Assembly: GCA_937899835.1 (NCBI GenBank) | Contig: CALCCE010000206.1 | Span: 1 to 42,618, forward strand | Source of the DNA: an uncultured Flavobacteriales bacterium | GTDB lineage: Bacteria > Bacteroidota > Bacteroidia > Flavobacteriales_G > Salibacteraceae | Direction of reading: 5' to 3' | DNA length: 42,618 bases | Position numbers and translations under genes: made by a program | The notes under the pieces: model-generated | Database searches by the model: none | Seen by the model: the letters and a program-made list of their open reading frames with translations, nothing else | What the model was told of the DNA's origin: nothing | Part shown: piece by piece, positions 1,184-14,283 of the stretch | How the letters are laid out: each line of letters begins with the position of its first letter | Numbering within the stretch: position 1 is the stretch's first letter

Positions 1184-1356
1184 AGTAAATTTGATTTGAG
1201 CACAAGATACCCGTAAACCAACCATCGGTTGTATCGCTACCGAATATCGTGGGCTACCTTCCTTCAAAATTGGTCCTTCATTTCGGGTGCTCCGTCGAAA
1301 ATTGGAAGAGGCATCTTGTTGTATTCTTTAATTTGGGCACAAAATTTACCGCAGGG

Positions 1357-2082
1357 ATGGGCAAGGTGAAAATAATGGTGGTCGAAGACGAAATTGTAGT
1401 GGCCGACAACATTTGCATGATCCTCGAACAGTTGGGCTACGATGTGCTCGATCCGGTGATCAACTATACCGATGCGGTGGCTTTGCTTGAGCAAGATCGC
1501 CCCGATTTGGCCTTACTCGACATTCAATTGGCCGGTAGCAAAGATGGTATTGACCTAGCGTGGAAAATTAAAGAAGATTTTGACCTGCCCTTTGTGTTTC
1601 TCACCTCCAATGCCGACCCACGGACCATCGAGCGGGCAAAAATGCTTACTCCGCCGGCCTATTTGGTGAAGCCCTTCAACCGGGACGACCTGTATACTTC
1701 CATTGAATTGGCCTTATTCAATTTTCAAAAAAGCCAATCCCATTCAGAAGAAGGCGAGGAAGTAATTATCAAAGACGCGCTTTTTGTGAAAGACAGAAAC
1801 CTCTTTCACAAGGTGAAATTCGAAGAGATTCTTTTTGCTAAAAGCGAACATGTGTATGTGGAGCTGTATGTGAAATCTGGCAAAAAACTGCTCATCCGAA
1901 CCACCATGAACCGCATGGTAGAGCGCCTGCCCAAGAACTTTTTTCGGGTGCACCGCTCCTACACCATCAACCTCGATTTTCTCGATACCATTCACCCGGC
2001 AGCCGTTGAAATCGGTGGGCATCAGGTACCGGTGGGTAAAACCTTTCGTGAGCAATTGATGCGGGTTATCCACCTGGAATAA
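1357..2082 (+). CDS. LytTR-family response regulator
   Basis: A 241-residue two-component response regulator. The frame is open from 1249, but ATG 1357 begins directly with the receiver-domain first strand (MGKVKIMVVEDE), so it is chosen. The receiver domain spans about residues 4-120, with the acidic pair E10/D11, phospho-acceptor D55 in LLDIQL, and the conserved lysine K105 in YLVKPF. A LytTR DNA-binding domain fills about 140-240, with the typical F.RVHRSYTINL..L motif. It presumably binds DNA as a phosphorylation-dependent dimer. The neighbouring kinase (2091-4022) is convergent with only 8 bp between stops, which suggests a cognate pair, although convergent order is less usual than an operon. 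A near-match to a Bacteroidota -7 box (TAATTTG, one base short) lies about 25 bp upstream. Confidence 0.92.
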   Translation: MGKVKIMVVEDEIVVADNICMILEQLGYDVLDPVINYTDAVALLEQDRPDLALLDIQLAGSKDGIDLAWKIKEDFDLPFVFLTSNADPRTIERAKMLTPPAYLVKPFNRDDLYTSIELALFNFQKSQSHSEEGEEVIIKDALFVKDRNLFHKVKFEEILFAKSEHVYVELYVKSGKKLLIRTTMNRMVERLPKNFFRVHRSYTINLDFLDTIHPAAVEIGGHQVPVGKTFREQLMRVIHLE

Positions 2083-2090
2083 AGTCCGCT

Positions 2091-4022
2091 TTAGGCTACT
2101 TCTTTTCTCCTGAAGGTATCCAAAAAGGTAACCGTAAAAACGGCACCTTCATCAAAATGATAGTGGGTATTGCCATACAATTGGGTACTCAACCGGCGAA
2201 CCAAACGCAGGCCCAAACTCTTTGCCTTATGAAAATCAAAATCTACGGGTAAGCCTGGACCGTTATCGCGCAACACCAATTGGTTCTTCCCGGGTTCAAG
2301 GGTTGCAACCGAGATGTCTAAAACGGCTTTACCTTCGGAGCTGGCGTATTTGAAAACATTGGTGATGAGTTCACACAAAATCAACCCCAAGGGAATGGCA
2401 GTATCGATGTCGAGGGAAATGCCGGGCGCCTGAATGTGGCGATCTACCGAATGGCCATTGGGAAAGATGGCAGCGATCTGCACCACCAGTTGTTCCAGGT
2501 ACTCCCCAAATACGAGGTGAGCGAGGTCTTCATTTTGATACAATTTCTCATGGATAAGGGCCATGGCTTTCACCCGGTTTTGTCCATCGGCCACCGCCGA
2601 AATTGCCAGTTCATCTTCGAGGTTGAGGGTTTGCAAATCGAGCAGGCTCGAAATTACTTGCAGGTTGTTTTTCACCCGGTGGTGAATTTCTTTGAGCAAC
2701 AGCGCCTTTTCTCCATCCCTACGTTCGAGTTCCAGAAGGCTGTGTTCCAATTCTTCCTTTTGATTCGCAATGATGTGTTGCTGTTTGCGGGCCTTGCGGT
2801 AACGCGAGAAGGCAAAACCACCAGAGAGTGTAATGACAATAAGCAATACCCAAAGCAGGCGAGAGTTTTGCTCTTGCCGGCGGTTTTCCGATTCTTTCAG
2901 GGCCAGTTCGGCCTCGAAAGCTTGTTCTGCGGCAGCATCTTTTAGACTGTCCTGGATGCGTTCGTATTCAAACTTGTAGTTGAATTCAGCTTTGGTCACA
3001 GCGCGAATGTTTTCCTGATCAGCAATGCTGTCTTTGGCAGCCATAAACCGCTCGTGGTAACTCAAGGCCTCTGCATAGTTGCGTTGCTTTTTGTACACCT
3101 TTGATAACAATTCGCAGGCATCCCGAATGCCTCTTGGATAGCCCTTCTCTTCCGCCAATGCCAAACTGGCAAGACCATTTTCCAGGGCTGATGCCTTGTC
3201 GTTTCGCAGCAACTGCACATTGCCCAAGCGGGCAAATGAAAAAATTTGTCCTTGTCGGTCGTTGATCGATTTTCGAATGTTGAGCGATTGCTGAAAAAAC
3301 TCCTGCGCCTTTTCCAGGTTACCCCGGTTTTGGTTAAGACTGCCCAGGTTGATGAAGATGACACTACGGCCCCGTTGGTCGCCCAATTCTTCGTAGAGCT
3401 TGAGTGCCTTTAAAAAATATTCCTCTGCCTTTTCGATGTGGAGTTGTTCCAAAGAAGTGGTGCCCAAATTATTGTAGGTGAGCGCCATGCCACTTTTGTC
3501 GTTGGCGTGTTGCTGAAGTTCCAGTGCTTTACTGTGGTAGGTCATGGCCGATTCAAAATCGCCTTGATTCTTAAAAATGGCTCCAATCACCACATTGCTA
3601 AACCCCTGTCGATTGATCATTCCCAATTGTCCGAATTCATTTTCTGCTTCGTACAAGTAACTCAACGCCTGTGGGAAATTGGCCAGCAGGTAGTAGTTGA
3701 CGCCTAAGCCACCTTTGGCTTCGGCCCGCCGTTTGGCGTAGAAAATGGAGTCCCTCAAAGAAACTTCACCTTGTAGGCGTAGGTTACAGGTATCGATGAT
3801 AGAAAGGTGCAGAGCCTCATTTCCTGCATTGTCGAAAGGGGCAATGAGCTTGGCCCAGCGGGCAAGCGCTTCGAGGCGTACGGTATCTGAAGTAGCGGTG
3901 TCCGACAGTTGCTGCAAAGAGTCGAGCACCAGTGAATCGGGTCCTTGGCTTTTTCCTAAGCGGGCAATGCTCAGTAACAACAGGAGCACCATTCCACATC
4001 TGTAGAATTGGGAGGCTGGCAT
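2091..4022 (-). CDS. TPR-containing sensor histidine kinase (HisKA_2 type)
   Basis: A 643-residue membrane kinase. Residues 1-26 are a signal peptide ending near GKSQ. About residues 60-360 are tetratricopeptide repeats with the usual A.(T/Y)Y.NLG pattern, placed outside the cytoplasmic membrane. A transmembrane helix sits near 392-408 (LLWVLLIVITLSGGFAF), followed by a coiled coil. The HisKA_2 motif EIHHRVKNNLQ follows, with the candidate phospho-histidine at 447/448. A C-terminal HATPase_c domain shows the N-box (CELITNVFKYA) and a DNGPGLP motif. It would autophosphorylate and pass phosphate to the LytTR regulator encoded convergently at 1357-2082. This TPR/HisKA_2/LytTR architecture is common in Bacteroidota. 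The signal is unknown. Confidence 0.92.
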   Translation of the reverse strand: MPASQFYRCGMVLLLLLSIARLGKSQGPDSLVLDSLQQLSDTATSDTVRLEALARWAKLIAPFDNAGNEALHLSIIDTCNLRLQGEVSLRDSIFYAKRRAEAKGGLGVNYYLLANFPQALSYLYEAENEFGQLGMINRQGFSNVVIGAIFKNQGDFESAMTYHSKALELQQHANDKSGMALTYNNLGTTSLEQLHIEKAEEYFLKALKLYEELGDQRGRSVIFINLGSLNQNRGNLEKAQEFFQQSLNIRKSINDRQGQIFSFARLGNVQLLRNDKASALENGLASLALAEEKGYPRGIRDACELLSKVYKKQRNYAEALSYHERFMAAKDSIADQENIRAVTKAEFNYKFEYERIQDSLKDAAAEQAFEAELALKESENRRQEQNSRLLWVLLIVITLSGGFAFSRYRKARKQQHIIANQKEELEHSLLELERRDGEKALLLKEIHHRVKNNLQVISSLLDLQTLNLEDELAISAVADGQNRVKAMALIHEKLYQNEDLAHLVFGEYLEQLVVQIAAIFPNGHSVDRHIQAPGISLDIDTAIPLGLILCELITNVFKYASSEGKAVLDISVATLEPGKNQLVLRDNGPGLPVDFDFHKAKSLGLRLVRRLSTQLYGNTHYHFDEGAVFTVTFLDTFRRKEVA

Positions 4023-4117
4023 GGAGCAACGAAATAAAGGAAAAGCCTTGGTTTGAGCAGCTTGATGGTAAAAAGAACTTGAGGATACGGGAGGCTCAAC
4101 TCAGGTCTACGGTAAGG

Positions 4118-4768
4118 CTATCCGTCATCCAATTGAGCATAGGCATAATCGCTGGCCCTTCGGGCTTCCATTCGGTACAATACCCATGCTTTATTGGCCA
4201 GCAATTGGTCGAGCACCACTGCTGCAGATTCGGGTTGATGCAAGGCCAACAAAGCATTGCCCCGCAACAGCAAAATCAACTCGATTTGCGGGTGGTCTTC
4301 GGGAAACAATTTCAGTGCTTGCTCGGCCTGTGCATACTGCTCCTCCCGATACAATTCAAAAGCGGCCTCCAGCTCAGTGGCTTCGGCGGTATTGCTGCGA
4401 ACCGTAGTCGCCATCAGTTGGTAGGGTTCATAGCCCTGACTTGAATTCCACCACAAGCCAATGCCTACAGCTATAACGATGGTAATAGCTGCGGCCAAGG
4501 GGAGTAAGGAGCGCACATTAGAACCGGTTTTTTCATTCGACTTTTGCTGCGTAAACGCCCGTATGTGTTGTTCCATTTCTTCCGCTTGCTGCAGTGCTTC
4601 TGCTGGGGAAAGACCACTGCGATCCATGGCTTCTACCGCTGCGGCCAACAGGGAATCGGTGGCCATGCGCTGCTCGAATTGTTGGGCCTCCTTTTCAGAA
4701 AGCTTTCCAGCGAGGTAGTTGCCCATTTGTTGTAAGGTAGCGGGGCTATGGTGGGAAGATGTACTCAT
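4118..4768 (-). CDS. Putative membrane anti-sigma factor with TPR-like C-terminus
   Basis: A 216-residue single-pass protein. The N-terminal 80 residues are a helical, acidic cytoplasmic segment with MGNYLAGKLSEKEAQQFEQ, the zinc-finger-less anti-sigma style seen next to Bacteroidota ECF sigma genes. A transmembrane helix covers about 87-107 (LLPLAAAITIVIAVGIGLWW). The extracytoplasmic part (about 120-210) reads as one or two TPR-like helical hairpins (ELYREEQYAQAEQAL...). Its ATG overlaps the TGA of the sigma gene by four bases (4765-4768), so translation is probably coupled. I infer it holds the sigma factor at the membrane until a signal arrives. No catalytic motif is seen. Binding to the sigma factor is not shown by sequence, so this is a context call. 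Confidence 0.75.
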   Translation of the reverse strand: MSTSSHHSPATLQQMGNYLAGKLSEKEAQQFEQRMATDSLLAAAVEAMDRSGLSPAEALQQAEEMEQHIRAFTQQKSNEKTGSNVRSLLPLAAAITIVIAVGIGLWWNSSQGYEPYQLMATTVRSNTAEATELEAAFELYREEQYAQAEQALKLFPEDHPQIELILLLRGNALLALHQPESAAVVLDQLLANKAWVLYRMEARRASDYAYAQLDDG

Positions 4769-5376
4769 TCTGTTGCGTCCATTAATCCTTTGCGATTGGC
4801 GGGGAGCAGCTCTCGCAAACGCCGGATACCCCGGTCGCGGAACCCGCGCACCTGATTGAACGAAAATCCGTGCCGTTTCATGAGTTGCTGATAACTTTCT
4901 TCTTTCAAATAAATGGCCTCCACACAGAGGCGTTCGTTTTCTGGCAGTTGGGCAAGGGCAGCCATTAATACTGCTTCTTCCGGCGAGGCTTCCTCTGCCT
5001 GGGCCTGCGGAAATAGTGCCGCTTCCAGTCCGTAGGCCGATTTGTGCTTGTCATAGTTCTGCTTTTTGCGCAGTTGGTCCAACAAACTGTGCTTGACCAA
5101 AACCGTCATCCAGCTGCCAAAATCCTCCCGATCGTCCAACACCAAGGCGGGCAGCTTCTCCCGCAACTTTAGGAAAAGCTCGGTGGTGAAATCCTCCCGG
5201 TCTTCAGCAGTGGAGCAATAGCGAAAACTCAAACCAGCGATTTGGGCGGCATACCGCTCCATCAGGGCTGCAATAAGGTGCTCGTCACCCGTTTGCTGGA
5301 ACCGACGAATCAATTCCGCGTCCGTGAGCCTCTCGGAGGATTTTCGCAAAAAGGGTATTTGAAACAGTTTGCCCAA
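4765..5376 (-). CDS. ECF-type RNA polymerase sigma factor
   Basis: A 203-residue sigma-70 family protein. Region 2 covers about residues 18-105, with LIRRFQQTGDEHLIAALMERY and the DREDFTTELFLKLREKLP core. Region 4 covers about 130-195, with LPENERLCVEAIYLKEESYQQLMKRHGFSFNQVRGFRDRGIRRLREL, a helix-turn-helix that would read a -35 element. The start is a TTG at 5376; no in-frame ATG precedes it before a stop, and the next methionine lies inside region 2. It overlaps the anti-sigma gene by four bases and is divergent from the large TTR-like gene at 5633, with 256 bp between. That arrangement makes the TTR/DPNK/CHAT block its natural target, which is inference. Confidence 0.88.
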   Translation of the reverse strand: MGKLFQIPFLRKSSERLTDAELIRRFQQTGDEHLIAALMERYAAQIAGLSFRYCSTAEDREDFTTELFLKLREKLPALVLDDREDFGSWMTVLVKHSLLDQLRKKQNYDKHKSAYGLEAALFPQAQAEEASPEEAVLMAALAQLPENERLCVEAIYLKEESYQQLMKRHGFSFNQVRGFRDRGIRRLRELLPANRKGLMDATE

Positions 5377-5632
5377 ACAAACAAAATGGGGGTTTCAAAA
5401 TCCAAAGTAAGCATTTCCAAAGGTTACCTGAATAACGATGCTGCTGAGGTGATTTCCATCTTTCTAATGAAAAATGATGAGAATGTGATTTTTTTGGAAT
5501 TGAAAATCAGTCAGTTAAATGTTTTTGAAAAAATAATTGGTACAAAAAATGGAATTGGGAAAGTCACAAACGTCACCTCTTCAAACACGGCCATCCCGGG
5601 ATTTTTTTGGCCCTCATATCAAATCAAAAAAC

Positions 5633-8089
5633 ATGAAACCATCATTCAATTCGAAGTTCTCCATTGAAGGAATCATTCGAGGAAAAGAGAAGGGGCAGGG
5701 GCTGGAAGGGCTCCTGGTCAAAGCTTATGACAAAGACAAAGGGGTTGACGATACTCTGGGAACTACTAAAACCGATCCCAATGGTCGTTTCTCCATTGCC
5801 TACACCAGTGAAGACTTTAACGATAATGAAGATACGCGTCCCGACATCTACCTTATGGTTTGGAATGAACACGGGCAAGTGATTCACACCACCGAGTCCA
5901 AAGTGCGCTATGGTGCTTCTTGGGCAGAAAAATTTGAATTGGTCATTTCCGAAGAACTGCTCAAGCTTCCGGAGCGTGATCACCTGCGCGAAGACTTTGG
6001 CAGTCTCATCAGCATCAACCCCAATTACTTTGGTAGCATCCCCGAGCTGGACATTGATCTCGATTTTCCGGTGATTTTACCCAAAACGCTGGATACCTCT
6101 TATGAAGAACTGCTTTGCATCGGCCTTGATTCCAACAGGGATGAGTTAGAGGCGGTTTTTGAAGTGAAGCGCAGCACCGGCTTTCGAGGCGACCAATGCC
6201 GTGGTGGCAGCAACGAGTATGTAGCCTTCTACATCGATTATGGCGATGGGGCAAACGGAGCGCCCAACTTTGTGCCAGCCGGAGCTCCGGTAACCATCCG
6301 CGTACACGATTTTCGAGTGGCTGAAAAAGCACGGCCCAACTTTGCTGCACGTGCCGTTTTTACTCCCGAAATGCGGGAGAAATGCAACCAGGCGGGCTTA
6401 GTGCGCCTGCGTGCCATTCTTTCTTGGGATCAAGTGCCCACCGGGCCCAACTACCAACCCACTTGGGGAAACATTGTGGAGGCCAACATTCAAATCGCAC
6501 CAGAGCGGTTGATTCCTCCTTCTCCTTTGCCAGAGCTGATACCTTTTGCCAAGGTAGCTACCCAATACCCGCAGCAAATGATCGAATTGGCCAAGATCAC
6601 CGAAAAGCAATTGACGGGTATCGACCTTAAAAAACTTAGCGAAGAAGATAGGGAACGGTATACCTTAACCCAGCCTTTGAAGTTCAACGCAATAAACACG
6701 GAGGCACTGCAGCAGCGGGCCAGCTCTCGTACGCGTTGGGAAAAACTCACTTGTGTGGGCCTCTATCCGGAACAAAACCTGCTGGCAGCTACCATTGAGG
6801 TAAAACGAACGGCGGGTTATAATGGTGGGTTATGCACCTTCGGTAGCCCCGAATGGGTGATTTTTTACATCGACTTTGGCCAGGGCTTTGAGTACGTCGG
6901 TACTACTTCGGTAGCGGTACACGATGATGTTGCCAGCGAGGAAAATCCGGTCATGTATGCGGTGAGCATGGTATTGGACAACTTGCAATCGCGTTTGGAA
7001 AAATGCTCGGTAGAAAATGTGGTGCGGGTGCGCGGCATTCTTTCCTGGCGAGACGATCTTACCAACCAAGGACCTGACCCTGTTATTATTTACGGGAATC
7101 TCCTGGACCGAAGGGTGATTTTGCCACCGGCCCGCACCGAAAATCGACAACCACGTATTGAATCCATCAGCCTGATCCCAAGGGTAAACATTGCACAGGT
7201 GGGCAATCTCAGCGGCTATGCCGTGAAACAAAATGCCGCGGGCAACGATGTACCCGGTGCATTCGATCGCCCGTTTGGAGGCACAGTAGTAGCCAAAGGC
7301 GTTGTACAAGATGCGCTGGCGCAGTTTTACCGCTTCCGTTTCCGCAAAGTGGGCAATGTAGATTGGTTGCCGGTGACCAATCCCGTGGGCGCTTTTGATC
7401 CTGTTCTTTTACGAGCGGTGCAGCGACTGCCGGATAATGAAGGTTGGTTATCGTTGCAACAATTCAGAACCGACCGTTCGGTCTACCCCGATCAATTTAT
7501 GATGATGTGGAACAGCCGGGGGATAGAAGACGGCTTGTATGAATTGCAATTGGAGGTCGGAGATGTTTTCCGTCAGCCTATCGGCCAACCCGATCGTCTG
7601 CTTTTGCGCATCGACAACAGTGCACCTCAGTTGCTTACTTTCTCTAATTCTCCATTGCGCAACGAGGGAGTTACCGTGAAAACGATACAGGGGCAAAACC
7701 AACCGTGCGGACAATTTGAAGGACCGCAGGAGATCGCGATTTATGGCAACTTTAGCGATGCGCACTTCAGAAACTTTGCGCTTACCATATTTGGTGGCGA
7801 TCTCGACCCAGGAGGCGTTGCGCTGGCAGTAGATGGACGCTACGATGGCAACAATCCTGCCTTGAACACTTCCGGTACCGTTGGCGCAGTACCGGATGGT
7901 GTAGGCGTATTGCTCACCCGATTGAACTTGTGTGAATTGGCCAACATCGCCTGTGCTTACGGCATAGAGTTGTCGGTAAGCGACCGCACCATTGTGGGCA
8001 ACACCCCCGGTGGCTATCGGTTCAATTCCCGGGTTTACCGAGATCGAGCTTTTGTCACCTTCAACTGGGAACCCACCGGATGCCCCTGA
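5633..8089 (+). CDS. Large transthyretin-like beta protein with a duplicated module
   Basis: About 818 residues. The frame is open from 5537, but ATG 5633 (MKPSFNSKFS) opens directly into a transthyretin/carboxypeptidase-regulatory-like beta domain (about 8-110: I.G.IRG...GLEGLLVKAYDKD, TDPNGRFSI). Two copies of another module follow, at about 155-300 and 385-515. They share a CxGL start, an EVKR.(T)(G)(F/Y).G..C..GS.E.V.FYID(Y/F)G block, a VHD motif, and an ILSW followed by a YGN/WGN motif near the end. The remainder is beta-rich and Cys-containing, with an IDNSAP.L motif. There is no signal peptide and no membrane segment, unlike the two genes after it, so its location is open. No enzyme motif is seen. 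It may be the cargo or substrate of this cluster, but that is a guess. Confidence 0.8.
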   Translation: MKPSFNSKFSIEGIIRGKEKGQGLEGLLVKAYDKDKGVDDTLGTTKTDPNGRFSIAYTSEDFNDNEDTRPDIYLMVWNEHGQVIHTTESKVRYGASWAEKFELVISEELLKLPERDHLREDFGSLISINPNYFGSIPELDIDLDFPVILPKTLDTSYEELLCIGLDSNRDELEAVFEVKRSTGFRGDQCRGGSNEYVAFYIDYGDGANGAPNFVPAGAPVTIRVHDFRVAEKARPNFAARAVFTPEMREKCNQAGLVRLRAILSWDQVPTGPNYQPTWGNIVEANIQIAPERLIPPSPLPELIPFAKVATQYPQQMIELAKITEKQLTGIDLKKLSEEDRERYTLTQPLKFNAINTEALQQRASSRTRWEKLTCVGLYPEQNLLAATIEVKRTAGYNGGLCTFGSPEWVIFYIDFGQGFEYVGTTSVAVHDDVASEENPVMYAVSMVLDNLQSRLEKCSVENVVRVRGILSWRDDLTNQGPDPVIIYGNLLDRRVILPPARTENRQPRIESISLIPRVNIAQVGNLSGYAVKQNAAGNDVPGAFDRPFGGTVVAKGVVQDALAQFYRFRFRKVGNVDWLPVTNPVGAFDPVLLRAVQRLPDNEGWLSLQQFRTDRSVYPDQFMMMWNSRGIEDGLYELQLEVGDVFRQPIGQPDRLLLRIDNSAPQLLTFSNSPLRNEGVTVKTIQGQNQPCGQFEGPQEIAIYGNFSDAHFRNFALTIFGGDLDPGGVALAVDGRYDGNNPALNTSGTVGAVPDGVGVLLTRLNLCELANIACAYGIELSVSDRTIVGNTPGGYRFNSRVYRDRAFVTFNWEPTGCP

Positions 8090-8127
8090 TCTCAACGGAA
8101 GCATCACCCGTGAGACAGGTTTTCCAG

Positions 8128-8159
8128 GAAACCGGCCTGCCGACGGGCAGGCCGGTTTC
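8128..8159 (+). terminator. Strong GC-rich hairpin between the TTR-like and DPNK genes
   Basis: The arms at 8128-8141 and 8146-8159 are perfectly complementary (GAAACCGGCCTGCC against its reverse complement) with a GACG loop. The hairpin lies about 40 bp after the stop at 8089. No U-tract follows, so it may work as a pause, attenuator or RNA-stability element rather than a simple intrinsic terminator. Confidence 0.6.
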
Positions 8160-8243
8160 TCCTGCTCACCAACGAAAAACAATGAATTCTAATTTTATGG
8201 GAGAAATGATCCGGTTTTTTTCTCCACCATCACCTATACAATC

Positions 8244-9647
8244 ATGGAAAATTTGGCATCTAAAACAAACTTCTTGCTGTGCTGGATAGCACTCTGTCTA
8301 TTGTGCAGCACGGCTTTTCCAGGAAAAGCCTCCGAAAACCTGGGCATTCAATTTCAGCGGGTACAGACGCCCGACCCCAATGAAGAACGCTATCAATTTT
8401 GGGTGGAACACCAGGTCAATCCCGACAGCTTGGTGTTCTATCATTTTGTTTGGCAACTCGAAGGGCGCTTCTACGAATTTGGCTCAAACATCACCTATAC
8501 TTTTCGCATTCCAGAGGGAAACCTGGAACCTGAAGTGAAGCTCCTGGCACATTGGCGTTCTTCCCGCTATGCCGGAGACGATGACGACCCGGGCGTAACG
8601 GTGGTAGAAATTCCCGAAGGTAGCCTGCAACTAATGGAGCAGGCTACGGTGAAAAATGAAGCGCCCAACCTGGCTTTTGGTCGCTTGCCACGTCCAGGGT
8701 TTGGAACCACCTGTGCGTTGAATTTGCGACAGTCTAATTCCGCTTATTACCTGGAAGTGGTGGCCAGCGATGGTATGAATGAGGTTGACGCCTGCAGGCC
8801 CTGGTTGGGGTTCGAAGCGCAACTCCCAGAAAACATACACTTCTTTTCCAGCTTGTTGGAGGCCTTTCCCGACCGTTTGTTTTACCGCGTGGAACCGACT
8901 GAGGGTGGCCTCGACCTTTTGTTGCCCTTTTGCATTTCAGACAACTTGTTTGAAGGCGACTCGGTGAGGGTACAGGTGAATTTTCACGAAAAGATTGACG
9001 ATGTTGCCGGGCCTACCGATGACCCTTACCACAGCATTGCTCAAACCGCACCGGTAGTCGATTCGTGGGACCCCAATAAAAAGGTGGTGTTTCCTGAGCG
9101 GTATTTCTTTCCGGGGCAAACCCTGGAATACACGATTCACTTTGAAAATGAAGGCTCGGCCATGGAAGACTCGGTTTCGCTGATCGATATTTTACCTCGC
9201 GAGCTCGATCCGGCCTCCCTGGTAGTAGTGCGTTCCAGTCATGCTTTTCAGCAGGAATTTGTTGCCGCTCAACGCACCTTTGTGTGGCATTTTGGCGGAG
9301 ACAATTTTCAGTTGGCTCCCTTAAGCAGCCGCTTATCTGGCCTGAACCGTGGTTTCCTCACTTATCGGGTAAAAACAAAAGAAAATTTACCACCCCAAAC
9401 GGTGATCCGCAACCGGGCAGAGGTGATTTTTCACACCGGAAAATCGAAGCTGCTCACCGAATATTGCGAATCCATTTACCCCTGTGGTAGTGATGCAACC
9501 GACCCAACGGAAAAGGAAAAAGCTTCTTTCGAATTTCCTTGGGAACTACTGGTGATCATCGGCTTGCTCCTACTCGCTTTTCGGGTAGGAACTACCGTTA
9601 AAAAAAGAATGCAAGCTTCCGCAGGCCGTTCGGCCAACGAAGACTAA
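8244..9647 (+). CDS. Surface protein with DPNxK-type beta domain and C-terminal membrane anchor
   Basis: A 467-residue protein. A signal peptide ends around residue 29 (LLCSTAFPGKA). The middle is beta-rich. At about 272-400 is the Bacteroidota motif VDSWDPNKK followed by LEYTIHFENEG and LIDILPRELDPASL, which belongs to a DUF11-like domain often found in T9SS-exported adhesin-like proteins (Pfam now calls one such group DUF7619, from memory). Instead of a T9SS sorting tail, a transmembrane helix (ELLVIIGLLLLAFRV) and a short basic tail close the protein. The bulk should therefore face the periplasm with the C-terminus in the cytoplasm. It sits between the TTR-like and CHAT genes, all in one direction, and like the CHAT protein it has signal peptide plus C-terminal anchor, so the two may meet in the membrane. 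Confidence 0.85.
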   Translation: MENLASKTNFLLCWIALCLLCSTAFPGKASENLGIQFQRVQTPDPNEERYQFWVEHQVNPDSLVFYHFVWQLEGRFYEFGSNITYTFRIPEGNLEPEVKLLAHWRSSRYAGDDDDPGVTVVEIPEGSLQLMEQATVKNEAPNLAFGRLPRPGFGTTCALNLRQSNSAYYLEVVASDGMNEVDACRPWLGFEAQLPENIHFFSSLLEAFPDRLFYRVEPTEGGLDLLLPFCISDNLFEGDSVRVQVNFHEKIDDVAGPTDDPYHSIAQTAPVVDSWDPNKKVVFPERYFFPGQTLEYTIHFENEGSAMEDSVSLIDILPRELDPASLVVVRSSHAFQQEFVAAQRTFVWHFGGDNFQLAPLSSRLSGLNRGFLTYRVKTKENLPPQTVIRNRAEVIFHTGKSKLLTEYCESIYPCGSDATDPTEKEKASFEFPWELLVIIGLLLLAFRVGTTVKKRMQASAGRSANED

Positions 9648-9675
9648 GCTGGAAAACGGCGGTCTCACCTCCTGC

Positions 9676-9710
9676 AAAGAGGGTCCTCCAAATTTGGAGT
9701 GGCCCTCTTT
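9676..9710 (+). terminator. Hairpin terminator after the DPNK-domain gene
   Basis: The arms AAAGAGGG (9676-9683) and CCCTCTTT (9703-9710) enclose a second palindrome, CTCCAAATTTGGAG. The hairpin lies 28 bp after the stop at 9647 and is followed by GTGTTCTATT. It separates this gene from the CHAT gene, which has its own promoter candidate just downstream. Confidence 0.75.
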
Positions 9711-9718
9711 GTGTTCTA

Positions 9719-9752
9719 TTGGTGTAAGACTGGGTTGGCATTGTTACTTTTG
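9719..9752 (+). promoter_or_regulatory. Candidate housekeeping promoter of the CHAT gene
   Basis: TACTTTTG at 9745-9752 matches the Bacteroidota -7 consensus TAnnTTTG. TTG at 9719-9721 sits 23 bp upstream and could be a weak -33 element, at the long end of accepted spacing. The start codon at 9781 would leave a leader of about 20-25 nt. Position directly after a terminator supports the call. Confidence 0.45.
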
Positions 9753-9780
9753 GGCATAGTCCACCAACTGCCCGGCTTTC

Positions 9781-12624
9781 ATGTTTTGGAAATGCATCCG
9801 GTTTTCCCTGCTTCTTTTCTGGCTTTTTTGCTTTCTGCTGCGCGCGAAAGCGGCTGACAGCACCGGCATTTGGTTTCATCAAGCAGAGGAAAGAGCCGGT
9901 AAAGGGCATTTCGAGGAAGCGTTAATCGCTTACCGAAAAGCCCGTTTGGGATATGGACAGCGCCATCAACACGACAGTGTAGTGCTGTGTTGGTATGGCA
10001 TTGGAGACGCTTTGCGGAAAACAGACCGGTGGCTCGAATCGATCGAAGCTTTTGAAGAAGGCCTGGGGTATCAACAAACCTTTCAATCTGCGGACAGTGT
10101 GCAGGCCATGCGCTTTTTGCACTACCTCGGTTTTATGCAGGGCAAGCTGGGGAATCTTCCGGTGAAGTTGCATTACTACCAACGCAAGTTGGAATTACTC
10201 GAAGGTGTGGAAGGGCGCCACTCAATGAAGGTGGCCAAATGGTGCATGCAAATTGGCAATCATTACAACCGCATGGGCGATCTGGGAGCTGCCCTACGGT
10301 ATTTGGAACGCGCCCGGGAAATCATGAGTCAACACCATTTCGAAGCCTTCGAAAACCGGTCTGACCTGGCGATTAATTTGGGCTTGGCCCATTTTCATAA
10401 AGGAGAACCAGCGGAAGCACTTCGGCAATACCAACAAGCTTTGCACCTGCGCAAGCGGGCTTTCCCCGAGAATCCAGCGCCCGTAGCTGAAGTATATGCA
10501 TACTTGGGAGCGGCTTATCACGAACTGGGCAACACCGACAGCAGTCGCTATTGCTGGAAAAAAACAGAACGTGAGTTGGAGCCGAAGCACCATCCACAGC
10601 GATTGGAGGCTTTGCTTGGACTCGCCGAAAATATGGATGCAGCTGCGTTGCCCGGCTTGAGTTCGGAAATTGAGCAGCTTGCTGAAAAGGCCTACAAGCC
10701 CCAAAGTCGCGAGCGAACCATCACCTGGGTGCGATTGGGCAACTACCACCTGCACTTGGACAGGATGGAAGAACAGAGCATTGATTTTTACCAGCGTGGC
10801 ATTGCCGAATTGTCAACGGAAAAATCAGAGACGGAAATCACCGAACCTTGGTTGATGTTGGCCCATCTGGGCATTGCCCAAGCCCATTGGCAGCAATATG
10901 CGGTAACAAAAGAATTAGAAACGCTCAAAAAGGCAATGGCGGCCGCAGAGGCGGCCCTCCATCAATTAGAACGCATTCGGAAAGGCTTTGTCTCAGAGCA
11001 ATCGCGAAAAGAAATCACCGGTCGGGTATATGAGCTATACCGTTTGGGCGCGCGCGTGGCCGTAGAACTGGCTCAGGTTTCTGGTAAAAATACGCATGTG
11101 GCCACTGCCTTTCGATGGATGGAAAGCAGCAAGGCCAACTATTTGATGGAGCGTTACCAAGGCTCGATTGTTCGGAATCCTGCGGTGTTGAAACCCGACG
11201 GTTTCCAGGCGTGGGAGCAAACCCGTTTTTCAATTGATTTTTTGACCGCCCGGCTGGATGGCCTCCCGGAAGGGAGACTAAAAACAGATTTGGAAGCAGA
11301 GCTACACAGCCATTTGAATACCCAGGAAAAGTTGTTGGAAGAATTGGAACACCGTATCCCTGGATTTCGACAAAGCATGCAGGAAAGCACCGGGGTGTCT
11401 GTTGTGCGTTTGCAAGATTACCTTCAAAGAGAAGAGGCTGCACTGGTCACCATGCTTTCTGGACCTGGCGAATGCTTGTTGGTGATGGTTTCGGGAACCG
11501 ATATGGTTTGTCACCGCAGTACTTTGCCCAACAATTGGGAGCAAACGATTCAACAATTGCTCTCTTCGGTTCAAAAACCGCCTCTTAATTCTACCGACTT
11601 ACAACAGCAGTACGAAGACTATGGCAAGGCGGGCAACCTGATTTATCAGCAATTGCTGGCGCCACTGTTTCACCAAATGAAACTTCAGGCATTTCCGAAA
11701 CGCCTCATTTTTATTCCCGATGGTGCGGGGTACCGATTGCCATTTGATTTGCTTCCGATAACGGAAGTAGGAGAAACCACCGACTTTCATCAAGTGGACT
11801 ATTTACTGCGGCACACTGCCGTGTCTTATGCGCATTCGGCCCGGATGCTCTTGTCGGGACAAAAAGAGATGGCCAGGCCCGGCCACTTGTTGGCCATGGG
11901 CTTGGACTATGCTGCTCAAGCCACACAAGGTCAGGTAGCCCGGTTGGAATATGCCCGTCAAGAAATTGATGGGATTGCTGCCTATACCAGCCTGGATTTG
12001 CTCTGGGGCGAGGAAGTATTGAAAAGTAAATTAAAGGAACGCATGGCCAGCCCTTCGGTCCTACATTTTACCGCCCACACTGCTATCGATGCCGAACAGC
12101 CGTTGCGCAGTAGTATTCTGGTAAGTGCTCCAGATGGACAAGGCATTGATTCTCTGCGTATATCCGAAATTATTCAATGGTCGATGAGTGCGAAGTTGGT
12201 GGTGCTAAGCGCGTGCAACAGTGGTTTGGGCAAGCAGTTCCAGGGGGAAGGAGCCCAAAGTCTGGCGACTGCTTTTACCTATGCGGGTTGTCCCAGTACC
12301 GTCATGAGTTTGTGGTCGGTCAACGATCAGGCCACCGCCAGTATCGTAGCTGACTTTTATGATGAATTGGCGAAAAAACAACCAGTAGACCTGGCGCTTC
12401 AAGCAGCAAAGTTGAATTATTTGGCAACGCGGACCGATCGCCTCACGAGCCATCCCTACTACTGGGGGGCACTGGTGGCCTCTGGTCGGCCAGAGGCGTT
12501 GGCATTGGAGCAACCCAAGGGGTGGATGGACTATGGGCCATGGGCTATGGCAGTCGGACTGCTCTTGACAGGCTTGGCCTATGGGATAAAAAGAAAAAGG
12601 CCATTCCGAAGAACAGCCTTTTAA
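9781..12624 (+). CDS. TPR-CHAT protein, predicted caspase-like cysteine protease
   Basis: A 947-residue protein. A signal peptide lies at about 1-25. TPRs run from about 28 to 330 (for example ALIAYRKARLGYG and ALRQYQQALHLRK), followed by a helical linker with a coiled coil to about 560. A C-terminal CHAT domain covers about 600-915, with the catalytic dyad H766 in LHFTAHT and C812 in LSACNSG. The following GAQSLATAF and MSLWSVND motifs are typical of the family. A final transmembrane helix (AMAVGLLLTGLAYG) and a basic tail (KRKRPFRR) anchor it, so TPRs and protease should lie in the periplasm. CHAT is a caspase-clan (CD) peptidase family. Here the substrate is unknown; the neighbouring TTR-like and DPNK proteins and the TPR-bearing anti-sigma factor are candidates. 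Confidence 0.92.
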   Translation: MFWKCIRFSLLLFWLFCFLLRAKAADSTGIWFHQAEERAGKGHFEEALIAYRKARLGYGQRHQHDSVVLCWYGIGDALRKTDRWLESIEAFEEGLGYQQTFQSADSVQAMRFLHYLGFMQGKLGNLPVKLHYYQRKLELLEGVEGRHSMKVAKWCMQIGNHYNRMGDLGAALRYLERAREIMSQHHFEAFENRSDLAINLGLAHFHKGEPAEALRQYQQALHLRKRAFPENPAPVAEVYAYLGAAYHELGNTDSSRYCWKKTERELEPKHHPQRLEALLGLAENMDAAALPGLSSEIEQLAEKAYKPQSRERTITWVRLGNYHLHLDRMEEQSIDFYQRGIAELSTEKSETEITEPWLMLAHLGIAQAHWQQYAVTKELETLKKAMAAAEAALHQLERIRKGFVSEQSRKEITGRVYELYRLGARVAVELAQVSGKNTHVATAFRWMESSKANYLMERYQGSIVRNPAVLKPDGFQAWEQTRFSIDFLTARLDGLPEGRLKTDLEAELHSHLNTQEKLLEELEHRIPGFRQSMQESTGVSVVRLQDYLQREEAALVTMLSGPGECLLVMVSGTDMVCHRSTLPNNWEQTIQQLLSSVQKPPLNSTDLQQQYEDYGKAGNLIYQQLLAPLFHQMKLQAFPKRLIFIPDGAGYRLPFDLLPITEVGETTDFHQVDYLLRHTAVSYAHSARMLLSGQKEMARPGHLLAMGLDYAAQATQGQVARLEYARQEIDGIAAYTSLDLLWGEEVLKSKLKERMASPSVLHFTAHTAIDAEQPLRSSILVSAPDGQGIDSLRISEIIQWSMSAKLVVLSACNSGLGKQFQGEGAQSLATAFTYAGCPSTVMSLWSVNDQATASIVADFYDELAKKQPVDLALQAAKLNYLATRTDRLTSHPYYWGALVASGRPEALALEQPKGWMDYGPWAMAVGLLLTGLAYGIKRKRPFRRTAF

Positions 12625-13401: not shown

Positions 13402-14283
13402 TTATCCGTTTTTACCGCAGCAGTGCTTGTATTTACGGCCTTTGCCACAAGGGCACGGGCTGTTGCGGCCAACGGAGATGCGCTGCTTGCGCAAGTCGAG
13501 CGCCTGCATGTCGTGCTGAAAAATCTTTTCCAACTTGGCATACAAAGCCGGGTGCTTCTGGGCCAGCAACTTGGGACGTTCGAAAAAGTACTCACTGGCC
13601 ACCGCAAAAAACTCTTGTTTGTTGGTGCCGCCGTAAGGGTTGATGTCAGAATCTCCTTCGTAGATTTCGCCCACCTTTTCTTTGATCAGGTCGAGCCAGG
13701 GTAGCGTGTAGTGCTGTTCGAGTAAGAGCTCGGGCACCCCGTCTACCGCACCGTCTAACTTGTCGATCAGGTGCACAAACTCGTGTATGGCCGTGTTCTT
13801 TTTGTCAGAAGCATTGGAAAAACCATCGCGCAGTGCTTTGCGCGAAAGAATCATTTTGCCTTCCATGTAGCCCGTGCCCACCATGCCCAATATTTTACGA
13901 TCGGGGCCACTGGTTTCAAAACGTTCGTTGAAGCGGCCGGGGTAGATCAATACCTCGTCGAGGTTGTCGTAGGCCCATTCGGGAAATCGGAAAATGGGAA
14001 TTACAGCACTGGCCGCCACCAATAGGCGATCGTCGAGGTCAATATCTGTATTCACCGGAGTGATGATTGTAGTGAGTAGAAACTCCTGCATTTTGAATTC
14101 AAAATGCGCTTTCTCCTCTGCATTCAGCGCATTGTAGAAATTCACCTTTTGGGTCAACACCACCCGCCAATGATCGGGGAAGGGCGGGAGCGGCTGCTCC
14201 TTTTCCTGTTGCTTCTGGCGGAATTCTTTCCAAATCAAAAACAAAATGACTCCTACCGCCAATAAAATCAGATACGTCACCAA
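13402..14283 (-). CDS. MtfA-like (M90) zinc peptidase with C-terminal SEC-C motif
   Basis: A 293-residue protein. There is no ATG start: the frame opens with TTG-GTG at 14283-14278, directly before a hydrophobic helix (residues 2-18), so it is probably a single-pass membrane protein. The central domain resembles MtfA (peptidase family M90, formerly DUF980), with the zinc-binding HEFVH at about 167-171 and ELLLEQHYTLPW and QEFFAVASEYFFE nearby; the latter glutamate is a likely third ligand. The last 20 residues carry a SEC-C zinc motif (SPCPCGKGRKYKHCCG). In E. coli MtfA binds the repressor Mlc; here the membrane helix and SEC-C tail suggest another partner, possibly ribosome- or translocase-related. 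The fusion recurs in Bacteroidota as far as I recall. Confidence 0.88.
   Translation of the reverse strand: MVTYLILLAVGVILFLIWKEFRQKQQEKEQPLPPFPDHWRVVLTQKVNFYNALNAEEKAHFEFKMQEFLLTTIITPVNTDIDLDDRLLVAASAVIPIFRFPEWAYDNLDEVLIYPGRFNERFETSGPDRKILGMVGTGYMEGKMILSRKALRDGFSNASDKKNTAIHEFVHLIDKLDGAVDGVPELLLEQHYTLPWLDLIKEKVGEIYEGDSDINPYGGTNKQEFFAVASEYFFERPKLLAQKHPALYAKLEKIFQHDMQALDLRKQRISVGRNSPCPCGKGRKYKHCCGKNG

Follow-up and report, generated by a model that had tools for sequence, protein, structure and literature searches.

Protease-controlled sigma factors are known from the SAVED-CHAT and CalpL/CalpT/CalpS relays, which are cytoplasmic, linked to CRISPR and triggered by cyclic nucleotides. In the RseA/DegS/RseP system a single-pass anti-sigma factor receives a periplasmic site-1 cut near the membrane and the sigma factor is released (PMC10028731). 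CHAT proteases have been connected to extracytoplasmic function (ECF) sigma factors as well: in type III-E systems the protein that inhibits an ECF sigma factor is cut by Csx29 (PMC10028731), and the ECF sigma factor DdvS, partner of the transmembrane anti-sigma factor DdvA of Myxococcus xanthus, controls a defence island (PMC12288465). For ECF54 sigma factors, which have CHAT, subtilase and carboxypeptidase genes in their context, a review reports that proteolytic control, working without an anti-sigma factor, is proposed (PMC8999054). The DNA analyzed here, which we call the window, is a stretch of 42,618 nucleotides (contig CALCCE010000206.1, assembly GCA_937899835.1) from an uncultured Flavobacteriales bacterium of the Salibacteraceae. 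Between positions 4118 and 12624 it encodes an ECF sigma factor, a membrane anti-sigma factor with a tetratricopeptide repeat (TPR) domain and a membrane-anchored TPR-CHAT protein, for which we likewise propose proteolytic control of the sigma factor. The anchored CHAT protein is probably the site-1 protease of the anti-sigma factor, cutting it after Arg124 and thereby operating the sigma switch.

The sigma and anti-sigma genes lie on the minus strand, divergent from genes for a TTR-like protein, a DUF7619 protein and the TPR-CHAT protein on the plus strand. All five open reading frames of the original prediction were recovered with their coordinates, and the translational coupling that it claimed for the sigma/anti-sigma pair fits the 4-bp overlap between the two genes. 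The sigma factor (203 aa, 4765-5376) has Sigma-70 regions 2 (1.9e-7) and 4 (7.8e-6) above the Pfam cut-offs, lacks region 3 and passes the TIGR02937 sigma70-ECF model (4e-17). The anti-sigma factor (216 aa, 4118-4768, minus strand) matches the NCBIfam model 'anti-sigma factor' at 4.9e-7, which is under the cut-off of that model. Its AlphaFold model has a mean predicted local distance difference test score (pLDDT) of 84.9 and, together with a family alignment (A1, n = 23), gives N-terminal helices at residues 10-78, a membrane helix at 89-110 (4439-4504), an unstructured juxtamembrane linker at 111-127 (4388-4438) and TPR helices at 128-215 (4124-4387). The TPR-like segment expected in the periplasm is indeed placed beyond the membrane helix; its best structural neighbors are the TPRs of BamD, with weak similarity. 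Judged by this modeled architecture the protein is a membrane anti-sigma factor, predicted to bind and inhibit the sigma factor.

The TPR-CHAT protein (947 aa, 9781-12624, plus strand) combines TPRs with a CHAT domain (PF12770, 7.5e-53) at residues 617-902, which scores 180 bits against a cut-off of 24; the pLDDT of its AlphaFold model is 84. His766 (12076-12078) and Cys812 (12214-12216), the dyad that had been called intact, are aligned in place, and of the 161 CHATs with a C-terminal anchor 160 retain this dyad. By its sequence the protein belongs to the CHAT-domain peptidases, and protease activity is predicted. A signal sequence and a C-terminal anchor had been claimed for both the CHAT and the DUF7619 protein, and in each the N-terminus is indeed signal-like and the C-terminus has a hydrophobic helix with basic residues behind it. 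In the model of the CHAT protein this helix spans residues 919-938 (12535-12594) and precedes a basic tail. These features predict a periplasmic position for both the protease and the anti-sigma linker. By the length of the tail behind the CHAT domain, CHAT proteins fall sharply into those with 26-52 residues, which carry a hydrophobic helix, and those with 0-5.

In structural comparisons the closest folds to the window CHAT were Csx29 (Z 31.6 to 7y83 over 584 residues and 30.9 to 8eey) and separase. Craspase, composed of Csx29, Csx30 and CASP-sigma, likewise joins a TPR-CHAT protease with an ECF sigma factor and a sigma inhibitor. Csx29, however, is cytoplasmic and activated by Cas7-11 with target RNA, whereas the window CHAT is anchored in the membrane and begins with a signal-like stretch. 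The inhibitor also differs, being a single-pass membrane protein in the window, and the inferred residue before the cut (P1) is Arg here and Leu/Met in Craspase. On the Csx29 equivalog NF041237 the window CHAT scores 25.5 bits, below the cut-off of 300, and no Cas proteins occur among the flanking and member genes, ten in all, that were scanned with Pfam, a scan that did not extend to CRISPR arrays. The unit is thus not a Craspase, but by analogy it would work like one.

The DdvA entry in the PDB (8rot) is named CHAT domain protein. Residues 72-902 of the window CHAT model align to it across both the TPR and the CHAT part (Z 22.7), and the aligned DdvA segments ATHG and LAACEGG hold the His and the Cys. 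In DdvA the anti-sigma and CHAT parts form one chain, whereas the window has two proteins and the anti-sigma factor carries a TPR domain of its own. ECF54 systems share with the window an ECF sigma factor beside CHAT genes, but the window has a clear anti-sigma factor; this likeness is one of gene context. Compared with the RseA system, the PDZ serine protease at site 1 is replaced by a clan CD CHAT protein that has its own anchor and TPR array and exists in many dedicated copies per genome. The CHAT domain also has a SAVED-CHAT protein among its structural neighbors (Z 20.4; 178 residues at an rmsd of 2.1). The claim that the system was undescribed stands in part. A sigma inhibitor cut by a CHAT protease (PMC10028731), the CHAT/ECF54 association (PMC8999054) and DdvA were known, but no report of an envelope CHAT with an anti-sigma factor was found in a partial literature search, which did not cover the ECF reclassification.

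Aligned anti-sigma factors have little in common except their N-terminal helices, a motif of the F-x-P-Y type and one Arg behind it. In the window protein the linker motif is GYEPYQLMATTVR-SNT, and the bond predicted to be cut, between Arg124 (P1) and Ser125 (P1'; 4394-4399, minus strand), sits in a disordered stretch of the AlphaFold model. The site was compared in 87 pairs of an anti-sigma factor with a linked CHAT, P1 being assigned through the profile column with a slip of at most 2 residues allowed. Arg occupied P1 in 79% of the pairs, Lys in 5%, Met in 10% and Leu in 3%, so that Arg and Lys together made up 84%. At P1' we found Gly (44%), Ser (38%), Thr (8%) and Ala (5%), together 95%. 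P1 also follows the hydrophobic window of 18 residues at a narrowly distributed distance from its end, with a median of 25 residues and an interquartile range of 23-27. As a separate observation, a Met-P1 clade spread over several families (L161, L162, L165, L166, L171, L176 and L078, where L labels denote gene neighborhoods and G labels genomes, G000 being the window's own genome and G030 a relative) has the motif DPGLPxxM-S and, at the protease positions treated below, T/A/L-T/A-E.

The identity of P1 covaries with residues of the protease domain. Four odd loci of the first sample prompted this idea. A further 60 loci were then added by anti-sigma profile and 80 by CHAT, so that most of the 87 pairs were fetched after the idea had formed. 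An equation of CHAT residue D849 (12325-12327) with separase D2151 was dropped, as Csx29 K670, which has been named as the D2151 position (PMC9729208), falls at Trp+8 in the PDB alignment. We instead ran a scan of the columns of the CHAT domain, none of them preselected. The best predictor of a basic P1 was the column of S810 (Cys-2, 12208-12210), followed by those of E728 (11962-11964) and D849 (Trp+4, invariant in alignment A2). Pairs with a basic P1 had Ser at 810 in 73 of 73 cases, Glu at 728 in 72 of 73 and Asp at 849 in 72 of 73. With Met, Leu or Phe at P1 these positions held T/A/Q/G/I, T/L/A/S/D and E/P/G, respectively. The three residues combined agreed with P1 in 82 of 85 pairs, and positions 728 and 810 account for two earlier exceptions, L169 (Leu at 728, Ala at 810) and L016 (Val and Asn). 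For D849 against a basic P1 the counts in the 87 pairs were 72/1/4/10 (Fisher 2.6e-9).

Common descent was taken into account. Using a tree built without the trait columns, the best column was matched by 0 of 300 simulated site traits and the third column by 1 of 300. For D849 a model in which pocket and site depend on each other was preferred over an independent model (likelihood ratio 16.9, p = 0.002). On the tree, supported pairs were too scarce for an independent-pairs sign test to give a verdict, for which reason the model comparison and the simulation were used. In a comparison within genomes, which includes L016 and L017 of the own genome as manually entered pairs, the CHATs next to non-basic sites were precisely the altered ones in each of the five informative genomes (combined p = 1.1e-4). 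Here kinship of the hosts cannot matter, since the compared pairs share one genome.

Locus L017 of the window's own genome (G000, contig C22) gave a further association. Its CHAT gene (8692-10773) encodes the only one of the 161 anchored CHATs without the dyad, the His being changed to Val and the Cys to Gly. The partner gene, 5 bp away (10778-11761), encodes a fusion of a part resembling sigma region 2 with a membrane helix and a TPR domain, and its P1 is changed to Phe. The sigma2-like part was detected with a profile built in this work and is uncalled by NCBIfam and Pfam. From its sequence L017 appears to be a copy of the circuit that has decayed or been put to another use.

These patterns bear on two other explanations of the locus. 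The CHAT protein could be an output of the sigma factor, for instance an effector of defence or cell death that has other protein targets, with the anti-sigma factor released by another mechanism. CHAT proteases with other substrates do exist, such as activators of bacterial gasdermins (PMC9729208), and the divergent layouts would suit sigma-driven expression of CHAT. This arrangement leaves unexplained why the pocket tracks a residue of the anti-sigma linker and why a dead CHAT stands beside a fused sigma and anchor, and we regard it as unlikely. Nothing in the window data points to cell death, and PADLOC, consulted for assignment to a defence system, gave only sub-threshold or TPR-type matches. 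A slightly less probable explanation is that some other envelope protease cuts at the conserved Arg and that CHAT merely controls access by binding the TPR domain. It would fit the retention of the Arg in anti-sigma factors that have no CHAT nearby, but not the near-universal retention of the dyad in anchored CHATs. The covariation, moreover, is with the catalytic pocket and not with TPR surfaces, although the scan covered the CHAT domain and left the TPR columns out.

If the anchored CHAT is the protease, the covarying residues should be those that read P1. We take the S1 pocket of caspases to be formed by three elements, namely Cys-2, the beginning of the helix that follows the first core strand, and the loop that comes after the conserved Trp; by analogy S810, E728 and D849 are expected to line this pocket. 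As an outside check, the PDB alignment shows Gly in Csx29 at the position of Cys-2 and Ser at that of Trp+4, and Csx29 cuts after Leu407 (PMC9729208), which agrees with the rule for a changed pocket.

The unit was found to recur. The window's own genome (6.9 Mb) contains about 55 sigma genes (53 region-2 matches) and 11 CHAT matches, 9 of which are beside a sigma/anti-sigma unit, much more often than chance would give. Eight CHATs are close to such a unit or to a fused form of it. The ninth is split by a contig boundary: its part on C198 lies at the contig end and joins in frame to C13, which shares a 55-bp exact end overlap and holds a sigma and an anti-sigma gene. Some of these sigma factors are divergent, as L009 has only weak library matches and that of L017 was seen only with our own profile. 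A sample of genome contigs does not by itself set the two tail classes apart, as almost every CHAT in it has a tail. The separation came from Bacteroidia loci picked by CHAT alone, where a window-type anti-sigma factor occurred within 6 kb of 19 of 30 tailed CHATs and of 0 of 53 untailed ones (p = 2e-11).

CHAT was present in 150 of the 396 Bacteroidia genomes. Among the 69 genomes with a strong match to the anti-sigma profile (E <= 1e-30) it was found in 66, compared with 84 of the 327 others, counts that are uncorrected for relatedness. The pairs are convergent (38), divergent (28) or on the same strand (21). This reshuffling of gene order shows that the linkage of sigma factor and CHAT outlives any single operon. 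Among the organisms with named records are Aquimarina, Agaribacillus, Roseivirga, Fulvivirga, Aureispira, Sunxiuqinia and many Saprospiraceae. The conserved core consists of three genes, for the ECF sigma factor, the single-pass TPR anti-sigma factor and the anchored TPR-CHAT protein. That these are neighbors without functional connection might be suggested by the large number of ECF sigma genes in Bacteroidota genomes such as this one, but the linkage of 19/30 versus 0/53 led us to reject chance neighborhood, which the covariation also contradicts; we give this explanation practically no weight.

Several observations weigh against the assignment of CHAT as the protease of the anti-sigma factor. 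No window-type anti-sigma factor lies within 6 kb of 11 of 30 anchored CHATs in one set and 28 of 63 in another (about a third to two fifths), and about twenty anti-sigma factors have no CHAT within 9 kb, their Arg being mostly kept. One partnerless case in the own genome is a mere contig break. Some partners may therefore act in trans, or the pairing may be looser than stated. At the CHAT-free loci no replacement anchored protease was recognized by eye among the ends of the open reading frames listed, where no domain search was made. Within the covariation, the exceptions are L261, whose P1 is Leu although its pocket is the consensus one, and L233, which pairs Lys with Glu849, while L187 is ambiguous. 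The number of independent changes is also small, about 4 in the pocket and 5 in the site. Finally, the placement of residues 728 and 849 in S1 is our reading of the caspase fold, and D2151, the residue that reads P1 in separase, aligns with Trp+8 whereas D849 is at Trp+4.

Other CHAT arrangements were encountered during the survey. Genomes G039, G290, G306 and G338 (family f4) show an unusual expansion with 33-40 CHAT candidates per genome. In L010 (G000, contig C302) the CHAT-linked anti-sigma factor (3782-4534) has a periplasmic part that is beta-domain-like instead of TPR, and the CHAT has no membrane tail, which may represent an alternative subtype. Unanchored CHATs near another kind of anti-sigma factor, with a membrane segment or beta domain, occur in L088, L123 (f38), L083, L085, L125 and L130 and are possibly parallel systems. 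In L046-L053 and other genomes of family f1 there is a single long CHAT of about 1,400-1,600 aa per genome with no sigma genes nearby; the similar-looking neighbors of about 450 and 900 aa suggest a separate conserved system.

The loop imagined in the original prediction, in which the protease frees the sigma factor by way of the anti-sigma factor, is the best-supported explanation, and covariation has added a likely cut site and a matching pocket. The role of CHAT as the site-1 protease is supported by the gene linkage, the conserved site, the covariation of site and pocket, the joint decay in L017, the precedent of Csx29 and the presence of a site-2 type M50 protease in the same genome (PF02163, 1.3e-51), whose role in the circuit is only predicted. 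From these features, together with the topology signals and the intact dyad, we infer the cleavage itself, the participation of site-2 proteolysis, a signal and a regulon. The components would form an envelope signaling circuit that is complete in itself. In the resting state, the sigma factor would be kept at the inner membrane by the cytoplasmic N-terminal domain of the anti-sigma factor. The TPR domain of the anti-sigma factor and the TPR part of the anchored CHAT would face one another in the periplasm, and the occurrence of TPR domains on both partners suggests mutual binding. The TPR array of CHAT is a likely sensor, as is the DUF7619 membrane protein in loci that have it. Once activated, CHAT would cut the juxtamembrane linker between Arg124 and Ser125, which would shed the TPR domain of the anti-sigma factor. 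The truncated anti-sigma factor would then be finished by a site-2 protease in the manner of the RseA cascade and the sigma factor would be freed for its targets.

The two remaining genes of the locus are of different standing. The gene for the DUF7619 surface protein, earlier called DPNK (8244-9647, plus strand; DUF7619 at 8.3e-19), has a homologue (5.9e-58) at the matching place in L042 of the relative G030, where the layout is that of the window minus the TTR-like gene. A DUF7619 membrane protein is also found at the matching place in L015 of the own genome and in L044 of G030. On the basis of gene content it marks a four-gene subtype. For the TTR-like gene (5633-8089, plus strand) ATG 5633 is the most probable start, and the match to TTR-52 is under the Pfam cut-off. 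The gene has one copy in the own genome and no counterpart in 34 other genomes of the family; elsewhere in the class its relatives are scattered over nine genomes and match only in part. Given this distribution and its absence from L042, we do not count it as part of the unit. The five-gene co-occurrence that had been put forward thus failed for all five genes but held for the sigma/anti-sigma/anchored CHAT unit, and for this unit plus DUF7619 at four loci. The TTR-like protein had also been put forward as a substrate or ligand of CHAT within a five-gene system, for which the co-direction of its gene with those of DUF7619 and CHAT might speak. We consider this very improbable, since the gene is missing from nearly all genomes that bear the unit and its product has no obvious signal peptide in its sequence. 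The divergent intergenic region (5377-5632) is, by its position, where the promoters are expected.

If the proposed role of CHAT is correct, a large group of anchored CHATs of Bacteroidota would gain a function together with a substrate and a predicted site of cleavage; genomes were seen with up to about 40 CHAT candidates. Caspase-like cutting of a sigma inhibitor would then be a general mechanism of envelope signaling rather than a CRISPR oddity, and might be the source of the Craspase relay. The prediction is exact in that it names the bond that is cut and the pocket residues that must change with P1. More tentatively, and with rather more doubt than confidence, we suggest that many Bacteroidota may run sets of parallel insulated envelope circuits, each having a CHAT protease and an anti-sigma factor of its own and being separated from the others partly by a P1 code (Arg/Met/Leu) that is matched by the pocket, and that the Craspase, SAVED-CHAT and DdvA relays could be later captures of such an envelope module, which would be the older form.

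Three features of the surrounding DNA may be mentioned. Adjoining the unit, at 1249-4022, a LytTR response regulator gene is divergent from a gene for a TPR histidine kinase (HisKA_2). A tandem pair of related small secreted proteins with the common motif C-(x)n-DDRQCPxGY is encoded at 174-1267. On the other side, at 13402-14283, lies a gene for an MtfA-like M90 peptidase with a SEC-C motif at its C-terminus.

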